Assembly (NCBI RefSeq): GCF_013374995.1
Contig: NZ_CP056030.1
Span: 5,798,501-5,862,500, forward strand
Source: Pseudomonas eucalypticola
GTDB lineage: Bacteria; Pseudomonadota; Gammaproteobacteria; Pseudomonadales; Pseudomonadaceae
Length of the DNA: 64,000 nucleotides
Direction: 5' to 3'
Positions 55,908 to 64,000 of this stretch are shown here, one piece after another (within the stretch, counting starts at the first letter, position 1; every line of letters begins with the position of its first letter). The position numbers and the translations under genes are program-made. The notes beneath the pieces are model-generated. The model was not told the DNA's origin. It saw only the letters and a list, made by a program, of their open reading frames with translations, and did no database searches.

Positions 55908-57590
55908 ATGACTCAGCACAACCGCCACCCCGCCGACGGCAAGAAGCCCATCACCATTTTCGGCCCGGACTTTCCGTTCGCCTTCGACGACTGGATCGAG
56001 CACCCGGCGGGCCTGGGCATGATTCCCGCGGAAAACCATGGCGCCGAAGTTGCCATCGTGGGCGCGGGTATCGCCGGCCTGGTAGCGGCGTATGAGCTCA
56101 TGAAACTAGGACTCAAACCCGTACTGTACGAAGCCTCGAAGATGGGCGGGCGCCTGCGCTCGCAGGCCTTCGAAGGCACCGACGGTATCGTCGCCGAGCT
56201 GGGCGGCATGCGCTTTCCGGTATCGTCCACGGCGTTCTACCACTACGTGGACAAGCTCGGCCTGGAAACCCGCCCCTTTCCCAACCCGCTGACAGCCGCT
56301 TCCGGCAGCACGGTCATCGACCTGGAAGGCGAGACCTACTACGCCCGCACCCTCAGCGACCTGCCAGCCCTGTTCCAGGAGGTGGCCGACGCCTGGGCCG
56401 ACGCCCTGGAGGCCGGTGCCCAGTTCAGCGAGATCCAGCAGGCCATCCGCGACCGCGACGTGCCGCGCCTGAAGTCGCTGTGGAACACCCTGGTACCGCT
56501 GTGGGACGACCGCACGTTCTACGATTTCGTCGCCACCTCCAAGGCGTTCGCCAAGCTCTCGTTCCACCACCGCGAAGTGTTTGGGCAGGTCGGCTTCGGC
56601 ACCGGCGGTTGGGACTCGGACTTTCCCAACTCGATGCTGGAGATCCTGCGGGTGGTGATGACCAACTGCGACGACCACCAGCACCTGGTCGTCGGGGGTG
56701 TCGGGCAGGTCCCCGAAGGCATCTGGCGCCATGTGCCGGAAAAATGCGCCCACTGGCCTGCCGGTACCAGCCTCAGCTCCCTGCACCATGGCGCGCCCCG
56801 CTCGGGCGTGAAGAAAATTGCCCGCGCCGCCGACGGCCGCTTCGCCGTCACCGACAACTGGGGCGATACCCGCCACTATGCTGCCGTGCTCGCCACCTGC
56901 CAGAGCTGGCTGCTGACCACCCAGATCGAGTGCGAAGAGTCACTGTTTTCGCAAAAAATGTGGATGGCCCTGGACCGTACGCGCTACATGCAGTCCTCGA
57001 AGACCTTCGTGATGGTCGACCGGCCCTTCTGGAAGGACAAGCGCCCCGACAACGGCCGCGATACCTTGAGCATGACCTTGACCGACCGCCTGACCCGCGG
57101 CACCTACCTGTTCGACAATGGCGATGACAAACCCGGGGTCATCTGCCTGTCCTATTCGTGGATGAGCGATGCCCTGAAGATGCTGCCGCACCCAGTGGAA
57201 AAACGCGTGAAGCTGGCCCTGGACGCCCTGAAGAAAATCTACCCGGACGTGGATATCGCTGGCCATATCATCGGTGACCCGATCACCGTGTCGTGGGAAG
57301 CCGACCCGTATTTCCTGGGGGCCTTCAAAGGCGCCCTGCCCGGCCACTACCGCTACAACCAGCGCATGTACGCGCACTTCATGCAACACGACATGCCGGA
57401 CGACCAGCGTGGCATCTTCATTGCTGGCGACGACGTGTCGTGGACCCCGGCCTGGGTCGAGGGCGCCGTGCAAACCTCGCTGAACGCCGTGTGGGGCATC
57501 ATGAAACACTTCGGGGGCCGCTGCCACGCCGAGAACCCAGGCCCCGGGGACGTCTTTCACGAGATTGGCCCCATCGCCCTGGCCGAATAA
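55908..57590 (+). CDS. davB: L-lysine 2-monooxygenase (FAD flavoprotein)
   Basis: 560 residues, the known length of the P. putida enzyme. It oxidatively decarboxylates L-lysine to 5-aminovaleramide with O2. The FAD site VAIVGAGIAGLVAAYELMK is at about residues 48-66, and VLYEASKMGGRLRS is the ADP-ribose segment. ELGGMRFPVSSTAFYHY is the amine-oxidase family motif near residue 95, and IFIAGDDVSWTPAWVEGAVQ is the C-terminal flavin contact. The related Trp 2-monooxygenases share this fold, but pairing with davA 9 nt downstream supports lysine. AAGG precedes the ATG. Confidence 0.94.
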   Translation: MTQHNRHPADGKKPITIFGPDFPFAFDDWIEHPAGLGMIPAENHGAEVAIVGAGIAGLVAAYELMKLGLKPVLYEASKMGGRLRSQAFEGTDGIVAELGGMRFPVSSTAFYHYVDKLGLETRPFPNPLTAASGSTVIDLEGETYYARTLSDLPALFQEVADAWADALEAGAQFSEIQQAIRDRDVPRLKSLWNTLVPLWDDRTFYDFVATSKAFAKLSFHHREVFGQVGFGTGGWDSDFPNSMLEILRVVMTNCDDHQHLVVGGVGQVPEGIWRHVPEKCAHWPAGTSLSSLHHGAPRSGVKKIARAADGRFAVTDNWGDTRHYAAVLATCQSWLLTTQIECEESLFSQKMWMALDRTRYMQSSKTFVMVDRPFWKDKRPDNGRDTLSMTLTDRLTRGTYLFDNGDDKPGVICLSYSWMSDALKMLPHPVEKRVKLALDALKKIYPDVDIAGHIIGDPITVSWEADPYFLGAFKGALPGHYRYNQRMYAHFMQHDMPDDQRGIFIAGDDVSWTPAWVEGAVQTSLNAVWGIMKHFGGRCHAENPGPGDVFHEIGPIALAE

Positions 57591-57599
57591 GGAGCCACC

Positions 57600-58400
57600 A
57601 TGAAAATCGCGCTTTGCCAATGCGAGCCACAACCGCTGGCGGTCGTCGACAACCTGGCGCGCCTGCAAGCCCAGGTGCGCCAGGCCAAGGCCCAGGGCGC
57701 AGCCCTGGTGGTATTTCCGGAGATGTTCCTGACCGGCTACGACATCGGCCCGGATGCCGTACAGCGCCTGGCAGAAACCGCCAACGGCCCGTCTGCCCAC
57801 GTGATCGCCGGCATAGCCGAGGCCCACGACATGGCTATCGCCTACGGCTACCCCGAGCGTGGCGCGGATGGGCAGGTATACAACAGCGCCCAGCTGTTCG
57901 ATGCCCGCGGCATCAGCCTGCTCAACTACCGCAAGACCCACCTGTTCGGCGAACTCGACCATCGCCTGTTCAGCCCGGGGGGCGATGATTTTCCTGTGGT
58001 AGAACTCAATGGCTGGAAGGTCGGGGTGCTGATCTGCTACGACATCGAATTCCCGGAAGCTGCTCGGCGGCTGGCCCTCGGCGGCGCCGAACTGATCCTG
58101 GTACCCACCGCCAATATGCTGCCATTCGAGTTTGTCGCCCAAGTGACGGTACGCAGCCGTGCATTCGAAAACCAGTGCTACCTGGGGTACGCCAATTACT
58201 GCGGCGCTGAAGGCAGCCTGCGCTACTGTGGCTTGAGCAGCATCGTGGGGGCCGATGGCAACGTGCTCGCAATCGCGGGCGCAGAGCCCTCGCTGTTGTT
58301 TGCGCAGCTGTCTCGCAAAGGGCTGGGCACCGTGCGCGCCGCCTACGACTATCTGCGCGATAGGCGCGCCGAACTGTATCGGCCAATTTGCGAAAAATAG
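57600..58400 (+). CDS. davA: 5-aminovaleramide amidohydrolase (delta-aminovaleramidase)
   Basis: 266 residues of the nitrilase superfamily. The catalytic triad is recognisable: Glu in VFPEMFLTGYD, Lys in NYRKTHLFGELDH, and Cys in VGVLICYDIEFPE. It removes ammonia from 5-aminovaleramide to give 5-aminovalerate, the second step of the aminovalerate route of lysine degradation, following DavB. GGAG lies 6 nt before the ATG, and a strong terminator follows. Confidence 0.94.
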   Translation: MKIALCQCEPQPLAVVDNLARLQAQVRQAKAQGAALVVFPEMFLTGYDIGPDAVQRLAETANGPSAHVIAGIAEAHDMAIAYGYPERGADGQVYNSAQLFDARGISLLNYRKTHLFGELDHRLFSPGGDDFPVVELNGWKVGVLICYDIEFPEAARRLALGGAELILVPTANMLPFEFVAQVTVRSRAFENQCYLGYANYCGAEGSLRYCGLSSIVGADGNVLAIAGAEPSLLFAQLSRKGLGTVRAAYDYLRDRRAELYRPICEK

Positions 58401-58419: not shown

Positions 58420-58450
58420 GAAGCCCTCACTTTGAGGGCTTCATTTTTTT
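58420..58450 (+). terminator. Terminator after davA
   Basis: A perfect 10-bp stem (GAAGCCCTCA / TGAGGGCTTC) with a 3-nt loop is followed by A and seven T. Confidence 0.95.
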
Positions 58451-58695: not shown

Positions 58696-58724
58696 TTGAC
58701 AGCCTGCCGAAGACAGTCGATATA
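58696..58724 (+). promoter_or_regulatory. Candidate promoter of the polysaccharide operon
   Basis: A consensus -35 TTGACA (58696-58701), a 17-nt spacer, then GATATA (58719-58724). Transcription would begin near 58731, about 175 nt before the ops-like element and 320 nt before the first gene. A second TTGACA at 58867-58872 lacks a convincing -10. Confidence 0.5.
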
Positions 58725-58886
58725 TCTCTCTACCCGGCGCCAATAACGGCTGGGTCGAGCCACAACACAGAGTGCGGCCGATTAGCAGTCCGGTAGTAAT
58801 TGATAAAACCTGCCAACACTTACTTTTACTGTTCTGGCTCGATTTTTTATCGGGTCTGTATGGGTTTTGACAGAGTAATTCGCAAT

Positions 58887-58917
58887 TAGCTTGTTACGAC
58901 GAGCGGGCGGTAGCTTT
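58887..58917 (+). promoter_or_regulatory. JUMPstart/ops-like element
   Basis: GGCGGTAGCTT (58906-58916) matches the ops consensus GGCGGTAGCnT at every defined base. Upstream, TAGCTTGTTA (58887-58896) matches TAGCTGTTA of the longer JUMPstart sequence with one inserted base. In enterics, ops pauses RNA polymerase and recruits RfaH, which lets polymerase read through long LPS, capsule and exopolysaccharide operons. Its place in the 5' leader of a wzx-type operon, about 140 nt before the first gene, is the expected one. Confidence 0.75.
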
Positions 58918-59054
58918 GTCCCTCACAAAACACTTTCACATGACCCGAATGGGCCGCCCCCTGCGGTAGCCATGCCGCGAAAAAGTGTGAAGAACAATTA
59001 AGCGTCGATGTCCTGCCTTCGCGACCCTTCCTCAAACGCAGCGAGTTTGTTGCC

Positions 59055-59825
59055 ATGTCGCCACTGATTTCGATTGACGAAAACACCTCCGCCCGCCTGG
59101 TCCATGACATGAACCATCAGGGCTTCGCCACCTTGGAAAACGCCCTCTCAGAGGACGCGCTTGGCAACCTGCGCGCCTATGTCGAAGAGCAGGCCGCCCG
59201 CCACAATAACCAGTACTTCGCCTATCACGGCTACCCGGCGCTGGCCGGCAGCGCCCTGGCGGCATTGGGAAAAACTCCTGAATTCAAGGAGTTGCTGTCG
59301 CGCATGCACAAGCAGGGTAATGGCCACGACGCGCCCAGCGACGAAATTTTTCCAGTGCTGCGTTGTGTGCAGGGCGGCAGCGGGCGCAAGGAGTCCAACG
59401 CCTTTCACTACGACGCCACGGTGCTCACCATGCTGGTGCCGATCTTCACCCCCCAGGAAGGCGAACTACGTGGCGACCTGATTCTGTTCCCCAACCTGCG
59501 TCGCGTACGCCGTTGGGTACTGGTCAACGTGATTGAAAAAGCGCTATTCCAGAATGCACTTTGCAGAAAGTTCCTAAGTGCCTGTATTGATCGAAAATTA
59601 TTAAAGCCTGCAACACTAAGCGTTGTGCCCGGCAACGTCTATTTCTTCTGGGGTTATCGCTCGCTGCATGCCAACCAGCCCTGCGATCCGGCGTTCAGGC
59701 GGGCCACCGCGTTATATCATTACGGCGATCCCCACGCCGGTAGCCTGGTGACTCGCTGGATATTGAAACTCAATCAACGGCGCGCCCGAAAAGTTGTCGC
59801 CCGCACCGACGCCCCCCTTTCCTGA
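59055..59825 (+). CDS. 2-oxoglutarate/Fe(II) dioxygenase-like protein (PhyH-like), function unknown
   Basis: 256 residues. The likely metal triad is H118 and D120 (FHYD) and H205 (SLHANQPC), with R216 (AFRRATALYHYGD) placed where the 2-oxoglutarate-binding arginine sits in this superfamily. Between them are hydrophobic strands TVLTMLVPIF and SVVPGNVYFFWGYRS. It has no membrane helix or signal peptide. As the first gene of a polysaccharide operon it may hydroxylate or otherwise modify a sugar or carrier, but no substrate can be named. Codons 155-190 are clearly AT-richer than the neighbouring genes, a sign of transfer. Confidence 0.6.
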   Translation: MSPLISIDENTSARLVHDMNHQGFATLENALSEDALGNLRAYVEEQAARHNNQYFAYHGYPALAGSALAALGKTPEFKELLSRMHKQGNGHDAPSDEIFPVLRCVQGGSGRKESNAFHYDATVLTMLVPIFTPQEGELRGDLILFPNLRRVRRWVLVNVIEKALFQNALCRKFLSACIDRKLLKPATLSVVPGNVYFFWGYRSLHANQPCDPAFRRATALYHYGDPHAGSLVTRWILKLNQRRARKVVARTDAPLS

Positions 59826-59867: not shown

Positions 59868-60977
59868 ATGATCAACGTGACCAAGTCTTATCTGGGCAAC
59901 ATCGACAAGTTCAAGGCGTACGTGGACATGATCTACGCCTCGCACTGGATGACCAACCACGGCCCCCTGTGTTGCGAGCTGGAGGAGCGCCTCAAGGAAC
60001 ACCTGGGGGTACGCAACCTGATCCTCACCAACAACGGCACCCTGGCACTGCAAGTGGCTTACCGGGCATTGGGCCTGAGCGGCAGCGCGGTCACCACCCC
60101 CTTCAGCTTCGTCGCCACCAGCAGCACCTTGCAGTGGGAAGGGATTCGCCCGGTGTTCGCCGATATCGACCCGCGGACCTGGAACATCGACCCCGAGCAG
60201 ATCGAGTCGCGCATCGGCTCCGACACTAGCGCCATCGTTGCCACCCATGTGTTTGGCAACCCCTGCGCCGTGGAACGTATCGAAGCCATCGCCAAGCGTC
60301 GCAACCTCAAGGTCGTCTACGACGGCGCCCATGCCTTTGGTGTGCGCCATGCCGGGCAGTCGGTGTACAACTGGGGCGATGCCAGCACCTTGAGTTTCCA
60401 CGCCACCAAGCTGTTCCACACCATCGAAGGTGGCGCCATCGTGACCCAGGACGATGACCTGGCCCGCGAGGTACGCAAGCTGTGCAATTTCGGCATCACC
60501 GGCGTGGACCGTATCGAAGGGTTGGGCACCAACGCCAAGCTGAATGAATTTTCTTCGGCCATGGGCCTGTGCGTACTGGACGACATCGAGCACATCTTCG
60601 AACAGCGTGCCGAGATGGGTCACTACTACGAGCAGCGCCTGAGCGGCCATTTCGACCTGCAGGGCGTACACGACGGCGACGAAATCAACTACAGCTACTT
60701 CCCGGTGGGCCTGCTCAACCAGGCCGAGGCCCTGGCCGTGCGGGACGCGCTGCAGGAGCAGGACATCAACCCGCGCCGCTATTTCTACCCGTCGCTGGAC
60801 ACCCTGGACTACCTGCAACCCCAGGCCGCCCAACCCCATTCCCGCGGCCTGAGCCAGCGCATCCTGTGCCTGCCCATTTACCCGGGCCTGGCTCGCGACA
60901 TTCAGGACAAGGTCATCGACACCCTGCTGCGCCAGCGCGAGAAGCCCCAGGACACTTCACTCGCGCATGCGGTGTAA
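59868..60977 (+). CDS. DegT/DnrJ/EryC1/StrS-family sugar aminotransferase
   Basis: 369 residues of the PLP-dependent sugar aminotransferase family (WecE/VioA-like). The PLP lysine is K181 in SFHATKLFHTIEGGAI, and the conserved aspartate is D152 in YDGAHAFGV. NNGTLALQVAYRAL is the phosphate-binding segment. It would aminate a nucleotide-linked keto-sugar, often dTDP-4-keto-6-deoxyglucose, giving an amino-deoxy-sugar for the polymer. It starts 42 nt after the oxygenase-like gene and 3 nt before the flippase. Confidence 0.88.
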   Translation: MINVTKSYLGNIDKFKAYVDMIYASHWMTNHGPLCCELEERLKEHLGVRNLILTNNGTLALQVAYRALGLSGSAVTTPFSFVATSSTLQWEGIRPVFADIDPRTWNIDPEQIESRIGSDTSAIVATHVFGNPCAVERIEAIAKRRNLKVVYDGAHAFGVRHAGQSVYNWGDASTLSFHATKLFHTIEGGAIVTQDDDLAREVRKLCNFGITGVDRIEGLGTNAKLNEFSSAMGLCVLDDIEHIFEQRAEMGHYYEQRLSGHFDLQGVHDGDEINYSYFPVGLLNQAEALAVRDALQEQDINPRRYFYPSLDTLDYLQPQAAQPHSRGLSQRILCLPIYPGLARDIQDKVIDTLLRQREKPQDTSLAHAV

Positions 60978-60980
60978 CGC

Positions 60981-62498
60981 ATGAAAAAGCTTTCGGTGGT
61001 TCACAACACCACCATCAGCTACCTGGGGCAGGCCTACACGCTGCTGGTGGGTATTCTGATCATGCCGTTCTACCTCGGTCACCTGGGCGCCGAGGTGTAT
61101 GGCCTGATTGGTTTCTACGCAGTGCTGCAGGCCTGGCTGACACTGCTGGACGCGGGCATGTCGCCGTCGCTGGTGCGCGAGATCGCGCACCACCAGGGCA
61201 GCGCCCGGCAGCTGCGCAAGTCGGGGTGGTTGCTGCGCTCCTTCGAGCTGATTTTCGTGCCCCTGGCGCTGGTGTGCGTGCTGGGGGTGTGGCTGGCCAG
61301 CCCCTGGATCGCCGGGCAATGGCTCAACGCACAGCACCTGGCGCCGCAGACCCTGGCCCACTGTGTAGCCCTGATGGGGGTGATGGTCGCCCTCAGGCTC
61401 TACGCCACCCTGTACAAGAGTGGCCTGCAAGGCCTGGAACTGCATGCCTGGCTCAATGCGGCCAATGTGCTGATCGCCACCCTGCGCTATTTCGGCGGCC
61501 TGGCCCTGGTGGCATGGGTGTCCCAGGACCCGATCGTGTTCTTCCAGTTTCAGGTGGCCGTGGCCTTGCTGGAAACGCTGATCTTCGCTGTGAAGGCCTG
61601 GCGCATGCTGCCGGCGCCCCACTGGTACAGCGGCTTCAATCAGGCCTTGATAAAGCCGGTATTGCCCTTCGCCGCCAGCCTGTCGCTCAGCTCGGTGTTG
61701 TGGATACTGCTGACACAGCTGGACAAGGTGCTGCTGTCCTCGCACCTGACCCTCAAGGACTACGGCTACTTTTCCCTGGTGGCGCTGATCAGCACCGGCA
61801 TCATCATGCTGATCAACCCCCTGGTGCAGACCTTGCTGCCGCGCATGACCGCCCTGATGGCAGAAGGGCGCGATGCCGACATGCGTCGCCTTTACCTGGA
61901 CGCGCACCGCTTCATCGCCACTTTCATCGTGCCACTGTCAGCGGTTATCGCCCTGCATGGTGATGCCCTGGTCTTCGCCTGGAGCGGCGACCGCGCCGCG
62001 GCCCACTGGGTGGGGCCCGTACTGTTCTGGTACGCGCTGGGCAGCGGGATCCTGAGTTTGAGCGGCTTTCAGTTTTACCTCCAATACGCCTATGGCCGCG
62101 TGCACTTGCACCTCTGGTACAGCCTGGCTTCGGCCGTGGTGACCGTTCCAGTGCTGGTGGTGGCCGTGCAGTTCCATGGCGCGCTGGGTGCCGCGATCGC
62201 CTGGTTTGCCCTGCGCCTGGTGTCGTTTGCCTTCTGGCCAGCGTTCATCCACCGCCGCCTGGCACCAGGGCTGCACCGCCAGTGGCTGCACGACGTGCTG
62301 CGCATCAGCCTGATGAGCGCACTGGGGCTGGCAGTGACCCAGCCCCTGGTACAGGCCATGGCCGGCGACAACCGTTTGCAGACCTTCCTGGCCCTGGCCC
62401 TCTGCGGCCTGATCAGCCTGTTGTTGGTCGCCGGCAGCCACCGGCCCTCGCTGCAACGTGTCCTTCTCATCTTCAACCGTGTGAGCGCGCAACGATGA
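60981..62498 (+). CDS. Polysaccharide flippase, Wzx/MATE-like
   Basis: 505 residues with about 12-14 membrane helices and few charged loops. The N-terminus NTTISYLGQAYTLLVGILIMPFYL followed by LGAEVYGLIGFYAVLQAWLTLLDAGM is typical of the polysaccharide-transport (PST) family, which flips undecaprenyl-linked repeat units. Location next to a sugar aminotransferase and a glycosyltransferase supports Wzx. A Wzy polymerase has not yet appeared inside the window. The stop overlaps the glycosyltransferase start by 4 nt (ATGA). Confidence 0.88.
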   Translation: MKKLSVVHNTTISYLGQAYTLLVGILIMPFYLGHLGAEVYGLIGFYAVLQAWLTLLDAGMSPSLVREIAHHQGSARQLRKSGWLLRSFELIFVPLALVCVLGVWLASPWIAGQWLNAQHLAPQTLAHCVALMGVMVALRLYATLYKSGLQGLELHAWLNAANVLIATLRYFGGLALVAWVSQDPIVFFQFQVAVALLETLIFAVKAWRMLPAPHWYSGFNQALIKPVLPFAASLSLSSVLWILLTQLDKVLLSSHLTLKDYGYFSLVALISTGIIMLINPLVQTLLPRMTALMAEGRDADMRRLYLDAHRFIATFIVPLSAVIALHGDALVFAWSGDRAAAHWVGPVLFWYALGSGILSLSGFQFYLQYAYGRVHLHLWYSLASAVVTVPVLVVAVQFHGALGAAIAWFALRLVSFAFWPAFIHRRLAPGLHRQWLHDVLRISLMSALGLAVTQPLVQAMAGDNRLQTFLALALCGLISLLLVAGSHRPSLQRVLLIFNRVSAQR

Positions 62499-63424
62499 AC
62501 AGCAGACCCGAAAGCGACATCATGAAAAACTGGGGCCCGGCACGCGAGCCGCTGCTGAGCATCGTCTGCCCTACCTACAACCACGAACACTTCGTGGCTC
62601 AGACGCTGGACAGCTTCCTGGCCCAGCAGACCGACTTCCCGTTCGAAGTCGTCATCAACGATGACTGCTCCACCGACGGTACCGCGGCCATCGTCGCCGA
62701 CTATGCCCGGCGCTACCCCGGCATCATCCGCCCGCAGTTCCAGAGCGAGAACCAGTACCAGCAAGGCAACCATCCTTGCCCCGGCCTGTTTCGCCTGTCG
62801 CGCGGCAAGTACATCGCGTTCTGCGAAGGCGATGACTACTGGACCGACCCTTTCAAACTGCAAAAGCAGGTCGACTTCCTCGAGCACCACCTGGATTACG
62901 TGATCACTTACCACGACGCCGTGGCGTTCAACGAGCACGGCATGCAGGGGGTGCAGTTGCAGGGCAAGGGCCAGCGCGATGCCACCAGCCTGGAGTTGAT
63001 GCAGGGGCGGCCCATTTCCACCCTCACCACTTGCTTTCGCAACGTGCTGCACGAAATGCCCCGCGAACTGGCGGGCGCGCCACTGACTGACCTGGTGTGG
63101 TGGGCCCTGCTGGGGGCCCACGGCAAGGGCAAGTACCTGGGTGACATCGCGCCCGCGGCCTACCGGGTACACAGCGGCGGCGTGTTCTCCATGCGCTCGG
63201 ACAAGAAGAAGTTGCAGATGACCCTGCACACCTATGGCGCATTGGCCAATTACTACTTTCGCATTGGCAACGTGCCGCTCTACGAGCACTGCCAGGTGCA
63301 GCTGTTCGGCCTGTCGATCTCCGCCATTTCGCCCCTGAAGAAACTGCTGGCCCTGGCCCTGGTGGCCCGCAATGTCAGCGTCAACCTGCTGCGCCGCGCC
63401 ACCTCGTCGACCGCCCGGGGCTGA
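62495..63424 (+). CDS. Family 2 glycosyltransferase
   Basis: 309 residues, GT-A fold. SIVCPTYNHEHFVAQTLDS is the N-terminal nucleotide-binding strand. INDDCSTDGTAAIV and later FCEGDDYWTDPFKLQKQ supply the acidic metal-binding motifs. VHSGGVFSMRSD lies near the end of the catalytic domain, and a C-terminal amphipathic, basic helix suggests membrane association. Donor and acceptor unknown. ATG 62495 gives a 4-nt overlap with the flippase; an alternative ATG is at 62522. Confidence 0.88.
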   Translation: MNSRPESDIMKNWGPAREPLLSIVCPTYNHEHFVAQTLDSFLAQQTDFPFEVVINDDCSTDGTAAIVADYARRYPGIIRPQFQSENQYQQGNHPCPGLFRLSRGKYIAFCEGDDYWTDPFKLQKQVDFLEHHLDYVITYHDAVAFNEHGMQGVQLQGKGQRDATSLELMQGRPISTLTTCFRNVLHEMPRELAGAPLTDLVWWALLGAHGKGKYLGDIAPAAYRVHSGGVFSMRSDKKKLQMTLHTYGALANYYFRIGNVPLYEHCQVQLFGLSISAISPLKKLLALALVARNVSVNLLRRATSSTARG

Positions 63425-63460: not shown

Positions 63461-64000
63461 ATGACTGCGATGAACCGCTCCTCCCTTGAGCACTACCAGG
63501 ACACTCAGTTAGACCTGGCGACCCTGTTGCGCACCCTGATCGACCACAAGCGCCTGATCGCGGGCGTGGTAGGCAGCTTCGCGGTGGCGGGCCTGGCTTT
63601 CGCCTTCCTGGCCACGCCCAGCTACCAGGCCAACGTGATGATCCAGATCGAACCCCGGCGAGTGGGGCTGGACAACACGCCCGAGATCAACACCAAGCCC
63701 AACGCCGTGTCCCAGGCGACTGCCGAGATCGAACTGATCCGCTCGCGCGCCGTGCTGGGCCAGGTGGTCAACGAGCTGAACCTGGACGTGGTCCACAAGC
63801 CCAACTACCTGCCGGGCATCGGTGCCTTCATGGCCCGCCACTTCAAGCCTACCGCCAATGAGCCGCTGGCCGCGCCCCTGCTGGGCTTGGACAGCTTTGC
63901 CTGGGGCGGTGAGAAACTGGACGTGTCGACCCTGGAAGTGCCCGAAAGCCTGCTAGGCAAGAAAATGACCCTGGTGGCCGGCGAACACGGCCAATACCGG
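63461..64000 (+). CDS. Wzz/Wzc-type polysaccharide co-polymerase, N-terminal fragment
   Basis: The first 180 residues; the gene continues beyond the window. After a short cytoplasmic start (LDLATLLRTLIDHKRLI) comes a membrane helix (GVVGSFAVAGLAFAFLA) and the Wzz periplasmic segment (SYQANVMIQIEPRRVG), followed by AEIELIRSRAVLGQVVNEL, typical of Wzc/GNVR domains. Length of the extracytoplasmic part and context favour a Wzc-type tyrosine kinase for exopolysaccharide, but the C-terminal kinase is not visible. GAGG lies 12 nt before the ATG, an unusually long distance. Confidence 0.85.
   Translation, partial: MTAMNRSSLEHYQDTQLDLATLLRTLIDHKRLIAGVVGSFAVAGLAFAFLATPSYQANVMIQIEPRRVGLDNTPEINTKPNAVSQATAEIELIRSRAVLGQVVNELNLDVVHKPNYLPGIGAFMARHFKPTANEPLAAPLLGLDSFAWGGEKLDVSTLEVPESLLGKKMTLVAGEHGQYR

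Follow-up and report, generated by a model that had tools for sequence, protein, structure and literature searches.

The DNA analyzed here (the window) is a stretch of 64,000 nucleotides from Pseudomonas eucalypticola, and it ends inside a polysaccharide gene cluster. Fourteen same-strand open reading frames (ORFs) run from 59055 to 76060 in window-frame numbering, the sixth being rfaH, and from the shared strand and the short gaps we infer that they form one transcript. Ahead of them lies a leader with an ops element, an observation of the first-pass annotation that is confirmed here. The features, in order, are these:

58420–58442, + strand: terminator-like hairpin with a T run, between the preceding gene (57600–58400) and the leader
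58696–58724, + strand: promoter-like block TTGACAG-N15-CGATATA, conserved in related leaders
58889–58904, + strand: inverted repeat GCTTGT-TACG-ACGAGC, giving an RNA stem of 6 bp with a 4-nt loop, one base 5' of ops
58906–58916, + strand: ops element GGCGGTAGCTT, the predicted site of RfaH loading
58962–58972, + strand: diverged second ops-like copy TGCGGTAGCCA, aligned with the exact second ops of two relatives (L065, L066)
59055–59825, + strand: gene 1, 256 aa, without a Pfam or NCBIfam match
59868–60977, + strand: gene 2, DegT/DnrJ/EryC1/StrS aminotransferase (PF01041, 284.5 bits)
60981–62498, + strand: gene 3, flippase-like membrane protein of the Wzx type (NCBIfam flippase models, 42.4 and 40.5 bits, below cut-off)
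62522–63424, + strand: gene 4, family 2 glycosyltransferase, GT2 (PF00535, 75 bits)
63461–65671, + strand, running beyond the window end at 64000: gene 5, Wzc-like tyrosine kinase (Wzc_N, GNVR, Wzz)
65730–66233 in window-frame numbering (C1:5864230–5864733; L032:11730–12233), same strand: gene 6, rfaH (TIGR01955)
Genes 7–10, same strand: GT2, GT4-like, polymerase-like and hydrolase-like
Genes 11–14, same strand: GT4-like, GT group 1, WcaJ-like sugar transferase and Wza-like exporter

The names of genes 3, 8, 9, 10 and 11 are tentative, their models being below cut-off, absent or unrun, and genes 8 and 11 lay outside the Pfam scan. On one side the cluster is flanked by what we take to be tryptophan-monooxygenase-like and hydrolase genes (55908–58400), and on the other by what look like pqqF and pqqB (L033 2199–4652, from window-frame 76199). 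The cluster looks inserted between these two gene sets. A plasmid search gave 1244 records, each below 60% identity, and a close plasmid source was therefore rejected.

The ops element and its leader

As the first-pass annotation had stated, the ops consensus is matched exactly, by GGCGGTAGCTT at 58906–58916 on the + strand. This is the sole exact occurrence of GGCGGTAGCNT in the window, and the first gene starts 138 bases downstream. The element thus lies where an ops element is expected, within what would be the transcribed leader of a long operon. The 11-mer by itself is not rare. With up to one mismatch it occurs 7 times in the window (5.1 expected), and its 27 exact occurrences genome-wide show no enrichment over a reversed control pattern (42). 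Because the count is at chance level, the significance of 58906–58916 rests on position and conservation. All but two of the 27 are overlapped by an ORF of at least 80 aa, the exceptions being 58906–58916 and C1:5267978 (L026). The latter precedes an unrelated gene with the look of an oxidoreductase. With 25 matches overlapping ORFs and one ahead of an unrelated gene, none of the other genomic matches is proposed as a trans target.

Upstream of ops, the block at 58696–58724 had been described as a consensus promoter. A strict sigma-70 scan gave no match, including at this site, but the block itself recurs. Of the 69 rfaH loci described below, 57 bear ops, and 31 of these have the block 198–269 nt ahead of the first ops; on the forward strands of the 69 it occurs 32 times in total. 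The 26 ops-bearing loci without it are those of Stutzerimonas, those of P. nitroreducens type and some others. A terminator pattern scan found one site at 58420–58442, against 0.9 in shuffles, and no terminator-like site in the leader after 58442. A further block, GTATGGGTTTTGACA at 58858–58872, lies 16 bases before the stem and carries at most one change across a four-strain leader alignment; it resembles a −35 hexamer without a good −10. In a DNA search with the leader, just 7 of 398 genomes matched, which shows that its sequence is not conserved as a whole.

The stem that ends one base before ops is present in the minimum-energy fold. Its letters vary by group (GCTTGT/ACGAGC, ACTTGT/ACAAGT, ATGCCG/CGGCAT, TCGAC/GTCGA, GGGTCC/GGACCT, TCAGGA/TCCTGG and more), and despite this the 3' arm ends 0–2 bases before ops across groups. 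In L065 both arms have changed and pairing is kept (ACTTGT/ACAAGT). Mean stem scores were 12.3 at first ops sites (n = 66), 11.9 at second sites (n = 36), 13.2 at sites after rfaH (n = 23) and 13.0 at divergent sites (n = 9), against 6.7–7.0 in shuffles. Outside the leader, the 25 ops matches of the same genome averaged 10.1, so the contrast with these is smaller than that with shuffles. Under the scoring rule used, 11 of 195 ops sites had no stem. The 119-nt stretch around both ops sites folded no better than shuffles (z −0.99; 36 of 200 shuffles as good). Hairpin-stabilized pauses use a spacing of about 11–13 bases. Were polymerase to pause at U11 of this element as in E. coli, the stem would end 11–13 bases behind the RNA 3' end, which we offer as a lead; the ops pause of E. 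coli RNA polymerase at U11 is described as distinct from hairpin-stabilized pauses (PMC11001881).

The first-pass annotation had also taken TAGCTTGTTA for the upstream part of a JUMPstart element. By sequence this likeness is weak: the window scored 13.9 bits with the Rfam JUMPstart model RF01707, below its gathering score of 35, and a search with that model found none in the six Pseudomonas loci tried, while E. coli rfb scored 60 bits. We dropped likeness to the JUMPstart upstream half as evidence, since relatives keep the stem and not the letters and the Rfam score falls well short of its threshold. A stem-loop directly before ops, as in JUMPstart, is present here (6 bp, one base away), and on these comparisons the JUMPstart likeness is structural more than sequence-based. 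The stem as such is not new, because E. coli rfb has the same layout of stem and ops (TCTGGT/GCCAGG) and a conserved stem-loop in JUMPstart elements was noted in 2010 (PMC2864571).

ops and rfaH in relatives

Conservation was assessed in 69 RfaH loci, 63 of them titled Pseudomonas or Stutzerimonas. Looking upstream of related clusters for the element, as the earlier reading called for, we found that 57 of the 69 carry an exact ops ahead of rfaH and on its strand, whereas 300 permuted motifs gave a mean of 1.0 and a maximum of 20. At least two exact copies were present in 34 loci (permuted motifs: mean 0.02, maximum 2). On the other strand, ops occurred anywhere in 2 of the 69, with a mean of 2.6 and a maximum of 27 for permuted motifs. 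Several of the 12 loci without an exact upstream ops span too little upstream DNA; L069, L126 and L127 had none within 9 kb of DNA. Three loci, L124, L126 and L127, represent Candidatus Thioglobus and other gammaproteobacterial RfaH proteins of 37–40% identity. None of the three shows an exact ops in the upstream DNA covered, and L124 carries a one-mismatch ops 95 bases before rfaH. Alignment A1 comprised 40 of the 69 loci; L101 and L128 were excluded for a stop in the stretch, and L131 was left out.

The sampled genomes of the genus extend this picture. An RfaH match was found in 137 of 398 genomes (149 matches in all), so that ops and RfaH, introduced in the first-pass annotation as best known from enterics, are common in Pseudomonas too. 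The surroundings of 100 matches were examined and 79 contained ops; 200 permuted motifs gave a mean of 6.3 and a maximum of 41. In 38 regions, which we call layout A, RfaH is at least 59% identical to the protein of the present cluster, and ops lies upstream in 35, mostly 6.4–8.2 kb off and once at 2.5 kb. The remaining 62 regions encode RfaH proteins of 37–50% identity. In 31 of these, ops follows rfaH within 1.5 kb; in 13 it lies 3–5 kb to the other side and on the opposite strand; and 18 lack a nearby ops. His20 is replaced by Asn in all 18 ops-less regions and Arg23 by Gln in 13; the His20 change is also found in 27 of the 31 proteins with ops after rfaH, so His20 alone does not track ops. 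Three loci of the second layout (L202, L215, L230) carry a gyrA RNA motif (RF01740, 72–76 bits) near rfaH and the polysaccharide cluster. Of the 398 genomes, 31 contain the string GGCGGTAGCNTTGCCC, and 21 of the 31 are RfaH-positive. When its free position is T, the string is found in 17 of 137 RfaH-positive genomes and 1 of 261 others, a split chosen after seeing the data, which makes its Fisher value nominal. Among the literature matches listed, no title or abstract describes ops or JUMPstart in Pseudomonas, subscription papers and supplements lying outside the scope of that search.

The leader also bears on tandem sites. A second copy of ops, possibly degenerate, had been suggested 57 nt downstream of the first. 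The copy, TGCGGTAGCCA at 58962–58972, has two mismatches to ops and lies 56 nt downstream, start to start; taken alone it is equalled in 9% of shuffles (P 0.09) and could be chance. Among the four closest strains, whose leaders were aligned, L065 and L066 have an exact ops at the second site, and the present strain and L064 have TGCGGTAGCCA there. The suggestion therefore stands as to degeneracy and is corrected as to spacing. Removing loci that share the same letters around the first ops reduced 108 layout-A loci to 87. A pair of exact ops 56–120 bases apart is present in 48 of the 87, a single one in 24 and none in 15, six of the 15 covering less than 6 kb of upstream DNA. On this alignment and these counts, the tandem second site is real in relatives and has diverged here. 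The single-site loci include eight with TGCGGTAGCTT and four with TGCGGTAGCCA, located 75–121 bases upstream of the exact ops. In L100, L101, L103 and L110, TGCGGTAGCCA stands about 107 bases before the exact ops, in a different lineage and on the opposite side. Since the variant recurs in this way it may be tolerated, rather than a product of decay alone, and is perhaps a working weak site. An RfaH with two ops sites was not found in the literature library searched.

The RfaH encoded in the cluster

If ops recruits an RfaH-type protein, the genome should encode one. Two NusG-domain genes are present, canonical nusG and a single RfaH-family gene, and the NusG paralogue that the earlier reading called for turned out to be encoded by the operon itself, at 1.7 kb beyond the end of the window and 6.8 kb downstream of ops. 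Its product passes the curated NCBIfam model TIGR01955 (159.3 bits, 159.6 in a second scan; cut-off 144.5). It falls below the enterobacterial-type model NF006534 (PRK09014; 107.6 bits, cut-off 124), the UpxY model NF033644 (50.8 bits, cut-off 100) and the LoaP model NF033641 (29.2 bits, cut-off 125).

The four residues that make side-chain contacts with ops in E. coli RfaH (PMC5995543), Lys10, His20, Arg23 and Arg73, are identical in this protein. So are Glu48, Ile93, Phe130 and Arg138, which are described as the autoinhibited interface of RfaH, Arg138 being the salt-bridge partner (PMC7593976, PMC13015549). The HTTT motif of E. coli RfaH reads SWYP here, and the Trp at its second place is invariant in 100 of 100 Pseudomonas RfaH proteins examined. 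AlphaFold2 gave a β-barrel C-terminal domain in the best of five models for the RfaH of the closest relative (40 alignment rows, pLDDT 77.8, pTM 0.56) and again for the protein itself (68 rows, 27 of them enterobacterial RfaH; pLDDT 78.8, pTM 0.57), both without an E. coli control. A fold search with the model of the relative returned RfaH and NusG structures. Conserved ops-contact residues and predicted fold together suggest a protein that keeps ops recognition and may lack autoinhibition.

A probable self-encoded antiterminator

With ops ahead of gene 1 and an RfaH-family gene inside the cluster, the cluster likely aids its own transcription to the end. We put at roughly 0.8 the probability that this is a self-encoded, ops-guided RfaH operon, in which ops is the predicted loading site of the gene-six protein, and the sequence comparisons support the earlier reading of RfaH-type antitermination. 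We propose a model where transcription would start near the conserved block at 58696–58724 and RNA polymerase would pause on ops, perhaps with help from the RNA stem one base upstream. RfaH would read the exposed ops bases through the conserved Lys10, His20, Arg23 and Arg73 and remain on the polymerase, where it would exclude NusG and so Rho, couple ribosomes and carry transcription over some 17 kb, as far as the Wza-like gene. The RfaH product of gene six would load at ops on later transcripts, allowing gene fourteen to be reached. Two serial ops sites in relatives would provide two predicted loading chances, the second of which has diverged in the present strain. If early termination is real, the operon would contain an inbuilt positive loop, because rfaH belongs to this operon and lies 6.8 kb past ops, so that its own full expression would require read-through.

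It is conceivable that the in-operon RfaH is instead constitutively active and loads in cis independently of ops, the leader ops being a pause signal or an unneeded relic. A β-barrel C-terminal domain predicted from two different alignments fits such a protein, as does the preprint account of ops-independent, β-folded RfaH proteins encoded within or beside operons (PMC13015549). However, the preprint proteins are without key ops-binding residues, whereas the present one keeps all four, along with Glu48, Ile93, Phe130 and Arg138; the folding lacked an E. coli control and reached a pTM of only 0.56–0.57; and an element kept in 57 of 69 leaders is unlike a relic. We consider this reading unlikely. 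Far less probable is a leader that works as an RNA element without RfaH, whether an attenuator or a regulator-binding stem-loop. A stem does adjoin most ops sites, and the stem-loop of JUMPstart is conserved (PMC2864571), but the leader has no terminator-like site after 58442, what stays invariant is the DNA 11-mer read by RfaH and not the sequence of the stem, and the element is linked to an RfaH gene. The genomic count, with 27 exact matches to the control's 42, would even suit a chance 11-mer, an idea that is already contradicted by the four-strain leader alignment and by 57 of 69 loci in which place and strand of the element are conserved, and to which we give hardly any credence.

A self-encoded, ops-guided RfaH operon has partial parallels elsewhere. 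With the RfaH–ops/JUMPstart system of E. coli (rfb and others) it shares the exact ops core, a stem-loop adjoining ops, a polysaccharide operon and the four ops-contact residues. In E. coli, however, rfaH is separate and acts in trans, whereas here it is the sixth gene of its target operon; the stem letters differ, the Rfam JUMPstart score is below threshold, HTTT is replaced, and relatives often have two ops. Group CL7 of Shewanella RfaH is encoded within putative exopolysaccharide operons and so, by description, resembles the present gene, but that description includes no ops or tandem ops (PMC7593976). For the polysaccharide EPS273-M of Pseudomonas stutzeri 273, the EPS locus contains an RfaH-domain gene for which an RfaH role was proposed, and deletion of a kinase gene nearly abolished polysaccharide and biofilm formation (PMC5532660). 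Its gene list parallels ours, the homology being inferred from gene names, but the available text of that report mentions ops or JUMPstart 0 times.

About 14% of RfaH homologues are β-folded, preferentially encoded in or next to operons, according to a 2026 preprint whose main text has no mention of Pseudomonas (PMC13015549). Those tested function without ops and miss key ops-binding residues. The present protein resembles these monomorphic forms in gene position, in or next to the target operon, and in its predicted β C-terminal domain, but differs in keeping the ops residues and in having ops in its own leader. UpxY is likewise encoded with the operon it serves (PMC7593976), and UpxY and LoaP are alike in this respect, but the present protein scores far under both family cut-offs, and ops is present here. 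What is added to these systems is an in-operon RfaH, tandem ops in relatives and an RfaH that falls outside the present division into cis and trans.

It is tempting to speculate further, on a view that we hold as doubtful, that a large Pseudomonas family of non-autoinhibited, β-folded RfaH proteins with full ops recognition is encoded deep in its own operons and loaded at two serial hairpin–ops modules. If true, such proteins would supply the evolutionary step still missing between RfaH that acts in cis and RfaH that acts in trans, and positive feedback on elongation would make exopolysaccharide production an all-or-none switch. Tandem ops and an in-operon regulator make several ideas testable: ops reading without autoinhibition, a role for the abutting stem and the all-or-none exopolysaccharide switch. 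In a broader context, ops with RfaH is a widespread Pseudomonas trait in which regulator and target are often linked.
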